Origin: Methanomicrobiales archaeon
Lineage (GTDB): Archaea > Halobacteriota > Methanomicrobia > Methanomicrobiales > Methanospirillaceae
Assembly: GCA_025358115.1 (NCBI GenBank)
Contig: JANYKQ010000072.1
Span: 1-64,000 of the forward strand
Reading direction: 5' to 3'
DNA length: 64,000 bases
Position 1 is the stretch's first letter. Every line of letters starts with the position of its first letter. Made by a program: the position numbers and the translations under genes. This document shows positions 3,676 through 5,952 of the stretch, piece after piece. The notes beneath the pieces are model-generated. The model was not told the DNA's origin. It was given only the letters and a program-made list of their open reading frames with translations, and ran no database searches.

Positions 3676-3682
3676 AAAAAAA
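3676..3682 (-). terminator. Oligo-T terminator of the small ORF
   Basis: Seven A on the plus strand are seven T on the minus strand, about 40 bases after the stop of the 24-codon ORF at 3721-3798. It closes that transcription unit and faces the ileS terminator. Confidence 0.5.
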
Positions 3683-3720
3683 CAGGAAATTTGTCTGGCA
3701 ATAGTTTAAGGCCTGCCCGG

Positions 3721-3798
3721 TTACATGGGGGGCAGATTCTGTACAATGGCCTGGAGGATTGCAATGATGATTTTTAAGAATAGTGCCCAGTCAAACAA
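3721..3798 (-). CDS. Putative 24-24 residue hydrophobic peptide (25 codons with stop) with perfect Shine-Dalgarno
   Basis: A TTG-initiated ORF encoding a very hydrophobic, possibly amphipathic peptide that begins (M)FDWALFLKIII, continues AILQAIVQ and ends NLPPM. It has one Asp near the N-terminus, one Lys at position 8 and two Pro near the C-terminus. AGGAGGTGAT at 3813-3804 is a complete complement of the archaeal 16S 3' end and ends 5 bases before the TTG. A TATA-like box (3846-3859) lies at the right distance upstream and a T7 terminator follows. The adjacent ATG at 3805-3803 opens a frame that stops after three codons, so TTG is the better start. No homologue is recognised; a membrane-active or regulatory peptide is a guess. 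A structural RNA with a chance SD is the main alternative. Confidence 0.55.
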   Translation of the reverse strand: MFDWALFLKIIIAILQAIVQNLPPM

Positions 3799-3845
3799 AA
3801 AACATCACCTCCTTTAACGGGGTAATTTTCAGTGTACTATAACTG

Positions 3846-3859
3846 CATATAATCTTTTT
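3846..3859 (-). promoter_or_regulatory. TATA/BRE promoter of the small ORF
   Basis: On the minus strand the sequence is AAAAAGATTATATG, an A-rich BRE followed by a TTATAT box. Its centre is about 26 bases before position 3824, giving a leader of about 25 nt that just contains the perfect Shine-Dalgarno at 3813-3804. The remaining gap (3860-4200) is AT-rich, with no gene seen. Confidence 0.5.
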
Positions 3860-4213: not shown

Positions 4214-4257
4214 CGGAACAGCCATTTCAACGTACTTTATAGTTGGCGCTGAATGAA

Positions 4258-5952
4258 ATGAATTCTGACACAACTTCAAAAATATCAGATGATACGTGCT
4301 GGCTGTACCAGTCGCTGTTCTCGCAGAGCCATATGCCACAGGCAATTTTAGACACCAGCCTCAGAATTCTCGATGTCAACGAAGCATTCTGTACCATTGT
4401 CGGATACCCGCGGGATCGCCTCATCTCCCTGGACTTCCGGGATCTTAAAAAGCAGAACCTGCTCGAATATCTTTTTGAGGAGGGCGGGAGTTTCGATGAG
4501 GCTAAAAAACAGGGAAAACCGGCGAAATCACATGTGGGCTGGAATGCACCCAACGGGAGACATGTAGTGAACCAGTCGGTCATCCCGGTTCTGGACGGTA
4601 CAGGTAAAGTCAGTCACTTTTTTATCATCTGCGATGAGGTGACTGAACTCGAAAAAAAGATGGATGAGTTAAAAAAACTCCAGAAACGGTCGGAGATTAT
4701 TGTCCAGCAAAATCCTCTGCCCATCCTCGTAACCACAAAAAAGCTCAAAGTCGTTGTCACCAATGAGGCATTCCTGAAAATAAGCGGTTACGATGAGAAC
4801 CATGTGCGTTCCATGACACTCCGCGACTTTAAGGTTCTTGATAAAACAGGGGAAGGGGTGGGTGTTGTTCTCGAAAAAAAGAGACGGGCATTCGGCGAAG
4901 TCCGCGTGGAGTTCCCGACCGGGATCAAGTACCTCCAGCAATACAGCATCCCGATTATCAATGAGAAAAATGAGGTCTCCAATGTTTTTATCGTGTATAT
5001 CGATATCACCGACCTCCGCCACCTGATCCAGGAACTGGATGATTCGATCAGGCAACTCGAGACAAATATTCATGACACCAGTAAGAGCACCACAGAGATC
5101 GCACAGGCCGCCGAGAAAGTAGCCTTTGCCACCCAGAAATCAACCAATTCCATAAAGATGGAAACAGAAGTTATCCAAAAGATCGTAAAACAAATCTCCG
5201 AACTATCGGCTTCAATCGAAGAGACCGCCGCGACAACACAGGATATCATGCAGCATGCCAACATGGCCGCAAAGGATGGTTCAGATGCAGCCGCTCTTGG
5301 AAAGATGGCAACCGAGAAGATGCAGCTCGTAGAGAAGATCTCCCACGAGAGCGTGACCGAGATCACCCGGCTCAACGGGCAGATGAAAGAGATCTCAAAG
5401 ATTGTCAGGCTGATCTCAGATCTTTCAAGCCAGACAAACCTCCTGGCCCTCAATGCATCGATCGAGGCGGCGCGGGCCGGGGAACATGGTCACGGGTTTG
5501 CGGTGGTTGCCGGGGAGGTCAAGGATCTTGCGGGACAGTCGAAGATCGCAACGGGAAATATCGAAGGACTCATCAGGACGGTGCAGCAGAGCAGCGAGCG
5601 GACAGCCACGGCAATCCAGGCATCATACCACGAGATAACCGTTGGGATAGAACGCGTCAATAAAACGATCGAGGCACTCAACCGGATCACGACTGAAGCA
5701 GATGTTGTTGCACTGGGGATTACCCAGATCACCCGGGCTACCGAAGAACAGGCAGAAGGGACGAACCGGGTTGTACAGGGTATCCAGGATACGGGGAAAA
5801 CAGCACAGGAAAATCTTGAAAATATCGGGAGTATGGCAGCGCTCGCGGAAGAGACCAGTGCATCAGTCCAGGAGATCGCCAGCGCTTCCTCAGAAGTCGC
5901 CAGTCAGGTCAGCCGTATCAAGAGGATGATGGAAAAATTCAATGTTCAGTAA
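4258..5952 (+). CDS. Soluble PAS-PAS methyl-accepting chemotaxis-type signal transducer
   Basis: Two N-terminal PAS domains (about residues 20-125 and 130-260; for example [19 protein letters not shown] and [19 protein letters not shown]) are followed by a long coiled-coil MCP signalling domain (about 265-564). The conserved hairpin tip is present: [20 protein letters not shown] followed by [16 protein letters not shown]. No membrane segment or HAMP domain is visible, so it should act in the cytoplasm, sensing a small ligand or redox state through PAS and controlling a CheA kinase or another partner. No che genes are in the window. An in-frame TTG at 4243 would add five residues; neither start has a clear Shine-Dalgarno. 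Family assignment is secure, ligand unknown. Confidence 0.92.

Follow-up and report, generated by a model that had tools for sequence, protein, structure and literature searches.

ShoB and TisB of Escherichia coli are the closest described systems to the locus analysed here. ShoB (26 aa) is the type I toxin of the shoB/OhsC pair, a single hydrophobic helix with the sRNA OhsC as its partner, and TisB (29 aa, tisB/IstR-1) is induced by DNA damage and has a long structured 5' UTR with a standby site. Depolarisation of the E. coli membrane upon overexpression of ShoB and TisB is reported (PMC8309996; PMC8145889), and TisB requires its residues K12 and Q19 to arrest growth and deplete ATP (PMC11449926). 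Until 2025, when a cyanobacterial example was added (PMC12390103), the known type I toxins came from just three bacterial phyla, and we found no literature report of an archaeal type I toxin or TisB/ShoB-like peptide. Methanogens do have unannotated small proteins at the membrane, among them MtrR and others in Methanosarcina mazei; MtrR differs from the peptide described below in being 49 aa long and hydrophilic, lacking a TM helix and binding MtrA (PMC13370731).

Gene model and start codon

The window, by which we mean the whole 64-kb stretch of DNA that was analysed, carries a 25-codon gene on its minus strand (3721..3798; TTG plus 24 codons, LFDWALFLKIIIAILQAIVQNLPPM), which we base on its homologues and a pN/pS of 0.21. 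The frame, written TTG-FDWALFLKIIIAILQAIVQNLPPM-TAA, runs from the start codon at 3798-3796 to the stop codon at 3723-3721. Five bases upstream of the TTG lies a Shine-Dalgarno (SD) sequence, AGGAGGTGAT (3813-3804), the only exact SD 10-mer in the window (0.19 expected by chance). The matching anti-SD at the 16S 3' end, CTGGATCACCTCCT, occurs once in each of three complete Methanoregula genomes and was not found in the window's own assembly, which is only about 70% complete. Further upstream is a TATA-like box, TTATAT (3847..3852), preceded by an A-rich stretch and aligned with an A/T-rich box kept in all 15 copies that share the ileS locus. A T7 tract (3676..3682) forms a probable archaeal U-tract terminator, and most copies have a T-tract at the corresponding position. 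The initial annotation had named this same set of signals, including the 10-base anti-16S match 5 bases from the TTG, and each lies on the minus strand where it had placed it. A transcript start near 3824, as predicted, would give a 5' UTR of about 25 nt, and the peptide gene is probably transcribed alone, with an archaeal promoter of its own and a U-tract at its end.

The SD is conserved across intact copies and stands 4-9 nt ahead of the start in all 21 that were aligned, with a weaker form, AAGGGGGTGA, in G019. The start position is occupied by CTG in 13 copies, ATG in five and TTG in three. G013, G030 and G033 each have an in-frame stop codon 15 nt upstream and no canonical start ahead of codon 6, which leaves CTG as the only start well placed for the SD; CTG is thus the likely start in these three genomes. 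G017 and G020 have an in-frame ATG two codons upstream that overlaps the SD. A CTG start behind a perfect SD may explain why gene callers miss these genes, and pairing a full SD with the usual non-AUG start, CTG or TTG, would hold output down to a modest level.

Several upstream motifs were seen in subsets of copies. Between the TATA box and the SD the window has CAGTTATAGTACACTG (3829..3844), a GTACACTA-like motif found in part of the copies and possibly an operator or start-site element; GTACACTA also occurs on the aligned stretch in G034, G061, G013, G030 and G033. G015 and G062b have a perfect or near palindrome, GCTAATGA[TC]TAGC, upstream of the SD, and both this palindrome and the GTACACTA motif are possible operator sites. 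A weakly conserved motif of approximately AATTCTGACTTCAATAT, some 30-40 bases upstream of the TATA box (L080 about 4900-4935, and aligned copies), is perhaps an activator site. An Rfam scan of the window returned tRNAs only, with no match for the peptide locus.

Evidence for coding and distribution

The 21 aligned intact copies give a mean pN/pS of 0.21 over codons 2-13, a stretch clear of a 3' hairpin, and of 0.23 over codons 2-23. Over codons 2-13 the entropy is 0.53 bits at the first codon position, 0.18 at the second and 1.09 at the third, and the third-position excess has a permutation p of 7e-5 for these codons and was equalled in 0 of 200,000 permutations for codons 2-23, p-values that are rough since the permutation ignores the relatedness of the sequences. 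The pattern nevertheless persists between distant sequences: the window and G028 differ by 13 synonymous and three non-synonymous changes. The alternative frames are interrupted by stops in most copies. F2, D3, W4, A13, Q16 and P23 are strongly conserved, around a core of [KN]-[IL]-x-[IV]-A-[VI]-L-Q. The low pN/pS and the third-position excess indicate a protein that is maintained as its DNA changes; the frame is accordingly a conserved small protein-coding gene with a predicted product, and a non-coding RNA was rejected on the same two measures. The initial annotation had proposed to look for relatives that keep the amino acids and vary third bases silently, and the alignment shows such relatives; its view that gene callers had overlooked a real short gene is upheld by conservation of the frame within the genus and beyond it.

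We also considered a leader peptide or structured regulatory RNA, in which the frame would not yield a functional protein. Several copies have a CTGCCC...GGGCAG hairpin spanning the stop codon (3713..3735, minus strand; mean folding z -1.8), codon 15 is CTC in 19 of 21, and TAACCGGGCAG is conserved after the stop. The hairpin, however, is strong in some copies only and lacks covariation, RNAalifold finding zero compensatory pairs among the 15 orthologues, and we do not claim a conserved RNA hairpin over the stop. A leader would further call for a co-directional gene downstream, whereas ileS is convergent and separated by the T-tract. Outside the hairpin pN/pS is 0.21 and third positions are near saturation. 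Fold-back of a 3' end that hides the SD is familiar from hok mRNA. Here such fold-back is no better than in shuffled sequences by duplex energy (two of 21 copies with p<0.05, mean p 0.37), and it was likewise discarded. An RNA-level reading is already disfavoured, and we regard it as very improbable.

In total, 23 intact copies were found: 19 in 18 of the 39 Methanoregula genomes, the others in three further Methanomicrobiales genera. A DNA search of 60 relatives gave matches centred on the frame in 12 other genomes of the genus. Profile hits within the genus have E-values of about 1e-15, and profile searching also recovered copies beyond it, in G213 and G164/G165 of the same family and in G104 of another family of the order; the class-level search took in the same 232 genomes. 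A phylum-wide profile search yielded Methanomicrobiales only and none outside the order. A pattern scan of 84,980 GTDB genomes matched 11 Methanomicrobiales loci, the named records being Methanoregula and Methanomicrobiales, and four other loci that we judged to be chance, namely pieces containing IDW or LDW that lack an SD and mostly lie within longer frames. Pfam, NCBIfam and PDB gave no match to the peptide; the weak best hits were the NCBIfam smalltalk protein (NF033879; E 0.24, 11.3 bits against a cut-off of 24.7) and Pfam DUF6486 (E 0.54, 10.4 bits against 22.7). With zero matches among the phage, plasmid and IMG/VR collections, a mobile origin was rejected. An intact copy is present in M. 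formicica SMSP (G033, 2,820,858 bp; PMC4155587) at G033:C1:384606-384677, with the predicted peptide MFDWALFLKIVIAVLQAIVQNLPA; as this is a cultured type strain, the peptide is testable there.

Resemblance to TisB and ShoB

The predicted peptides are 24-29 aa long with a best 17-residue mean hydropathy of 1.9-2.5, and each is probably a single hydrophobic helix of membrane type. Such a product would fall within the description of a type I toxin as a hydrophobic peptide of less than 60 aa with one helix. On a helix wheel an arc of 40 degrees holds K9, Q16 and Q20, which form a narrow polar stripe. Q16 is present in 20 of the 21 aligned copies and K9 in 14, with N, T or Q replacing K9 in the remaining third.

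We compared the window peptide with the toxin sequences of the E. coli MG1655 record by Smith-Waterman alignment. Against ShoB, which has the same length, the score is 39 and the cores align gap-free (LKIIIAILQAIV / IKIIIAVLQLIL) with a common K-x6-Q spacing; 1 of 3000 shuffles was as good. Against TisB the score is 35 (LFLKIIIAILQAI / LILKLIVAALQLL; 22 of 3000 shuffles), and both peptides have a narrow polar stripe. Shuffling the toxins instead gave 1 of 3000 for ShoB and 18 of 3000 for TisB. The core LKIIIAVLQ thus matches both toxins ungapped with shuffle p-values of about 0.0003 and 0.007, which are uncorrected for the choice of targets that were picked for a familiar-looking motif, and the value for TisB is weak. 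K9 and Q16 align with TisB K12 and Q19. The peptide has no Pfam or NCBIfam match to the TisB or ShoB families, and similarity by convergence is quite possible.

Since the core aligns, K9 and Q16 fall on K12 and Q19, and both toxins depolarise the membrane, we put first the reading that Methanoregula and a few relatives encode a self-acting membrane peptide of 24-26 residues resembling TisB and ShoB, a tentative choice that we place just short of an even chance. The helix would insert in the membrane of the producing cell, and several copies would line up their polar stripes (K9, Q16, Q20), as proposed for TisB. The assembled stripes could then leak protons or ions and lower cellular energy, the gene being switched on under stress. 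The initial annotation had guessed at a membrane-active, toxin-like role, and the matching core residues lend this guess partial support. The decay and clean loss of the gene in relatives also count in favour of our reading.

Several observations sit less easily with a TisB/ShoB-like peptide. Short hydrophobic helices converge easily, the targets were chosen for their motif, and a third of copies have another residue in place of K9. Neither TisB nor ShoB has an equivalent of the invariant FDW start, and the net charge of 0 or -1 is unlike that of most type I toxins. ShoB is more positively charged, and the C-terminus of TisB is charged (D22, K26, K29). At the 15 orthologous copies we saw no RNA antitoxin, either antisense or trans. 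In a true type I toxin-antitoxin module a trans or antisense RNA would have gone undetected. The TisB/ShoB-like core would suit such a module, as would the decay of copies once the SD or start is lost. Around the 15 orthologous copies, however, we found no second conserved RNA element, the promoter, SD, frame and terminator being the only conserved parts, and the predicted 5' UTR of about 25 nt contrasts with the long 5' UTR and standby site of TisB. We consider a module of this kind improbable and, because no antitoxin RNA was seen, do not claim type I membership for the peptide.

A wider proposal builds on the self-acting, TisB/ShoB-like reading: that these peptides are the first archaeal family of depolarising peptides of this kind, usually CTG-started behind a full SD, serving methanogens as a self-acting dormancy switch and of independent or shared origin with the bacterial toxins. 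We regard it as possible but rather doubtful. If true, the K-x6-Q ion-leaking helix would be a solution that arose or spread across domains, and the gene would offer a concrete handle on dormancy of methane producers.

Locus, inheritance and decay

Fifteen copies share one orthologous place, in which thg1 (tRNA-His guanylyltransferase, named by reading its sequence) lies upstream in the same direction as the peptide gene and ileS lies downstream and convergent. The count includes G006, whose contig ends ahead of thg1 so that only the ileS side is visible. The position next to ileS given in the initial annotation is correct and is conserved in these 15 genomes. Where the peptide is missing the junction is clean and short: thg1 and ileS nearly touch (G004, G011, G022, G026, G035) or are separated by unrelated spacers (G012, G016, G021). 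On the thg1 tree presence and absence require at least five changes against a mean of 10.4 in shuffles, from which we conclude that inheritance accounts for most of the gene's presence, together with repeated losses or gains. The gene is not essential, since many relatives lack it or carry a broken copy. Only the window has, between thg1 and the peptide gene, a chemoreceptor-like gene (4243-5952, plus strand, 569 aa; PAS-like and methyl-accepting regions identified by eye), which the rest of the group lacks at this place.

Orthology that is stable over 15 genomes would also suit a housekeeping membrane regulator, and a small regulatory or accessory subunit is the main rival to a TisB/ShoB-like peptide. 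Its helix would dock on a larger methanogen membrane complex through the FDW and the A/Q face and tune its activity, much as the bacterial small proteins CydX, KdpF and AcrZ dock on larger membrane complexes. That certain residues (F2, D3, W4, A13, Q16, P23) are strongly conserved, and that the single TM-like helix is encoded at an orthologous position in 15 genomes, would agree with this role, for which MtrR acting on Mtr in M. mazei is a precedent (PMC13370731). A subunit is harder to reconcile with a patchy gene that roughly half of the genus and nearly all other Methanomicrobiales do not have, with clean losses between close relatives, and with conserved neighbours that are only ileS and thg1, neither a membrane protein. 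On balance we think it unlikely, while giving it serious weight.

A second subfamily has an ATG start (MFDWTLFLNIIIAILQAIIHxLP) and is located elsewhere, and no common partner gene was found among the neighbours of its copies. Outside the ileS place in general the neighbours, named by reading their sequences, include an ABC transporter, a zinc-ribbon membrane protein, LysE, a methyltransferase and a Che-like protein, with none in common. One genome, G062, carries both subfamilies, which together with the short amphipathic helix and patchy distribution would agree with an exported antimicrobial or signalling peptide without a leader, directed at neighbouring archaea. The loci nevertheless have no common export, processing or immunity gene, and the peptide is encoded by a single gene with its own promoter and terminator in a conserved orthologous place, not in mobile or peptide-synthesis clusters; export thus has little probability in our estimation.

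The initial annotation had named relatives that keep the RNA and break the frame as evidence that would speak against the gene. Broken copies (G008, G027, G010b, f5) are a minority, and they look like coding-gene decay in which SD, start or stop was lost. G008 has a TGA at codon 4 and G027 a frameshift, either of which could conceivably be an assembly error. G010b has lost its start region (G010 is presumably M. boonei 6A8; 2,542,943 bp). In six f5 genomes the SD and stop are lost and the core is still readable. The f5 copies, from one genus of another family, form a graded decay series (L092 in G104:C4, L096, L098, L100-L103), and G104 has an intact copy and a decayed partial copy about 400 bp apart.
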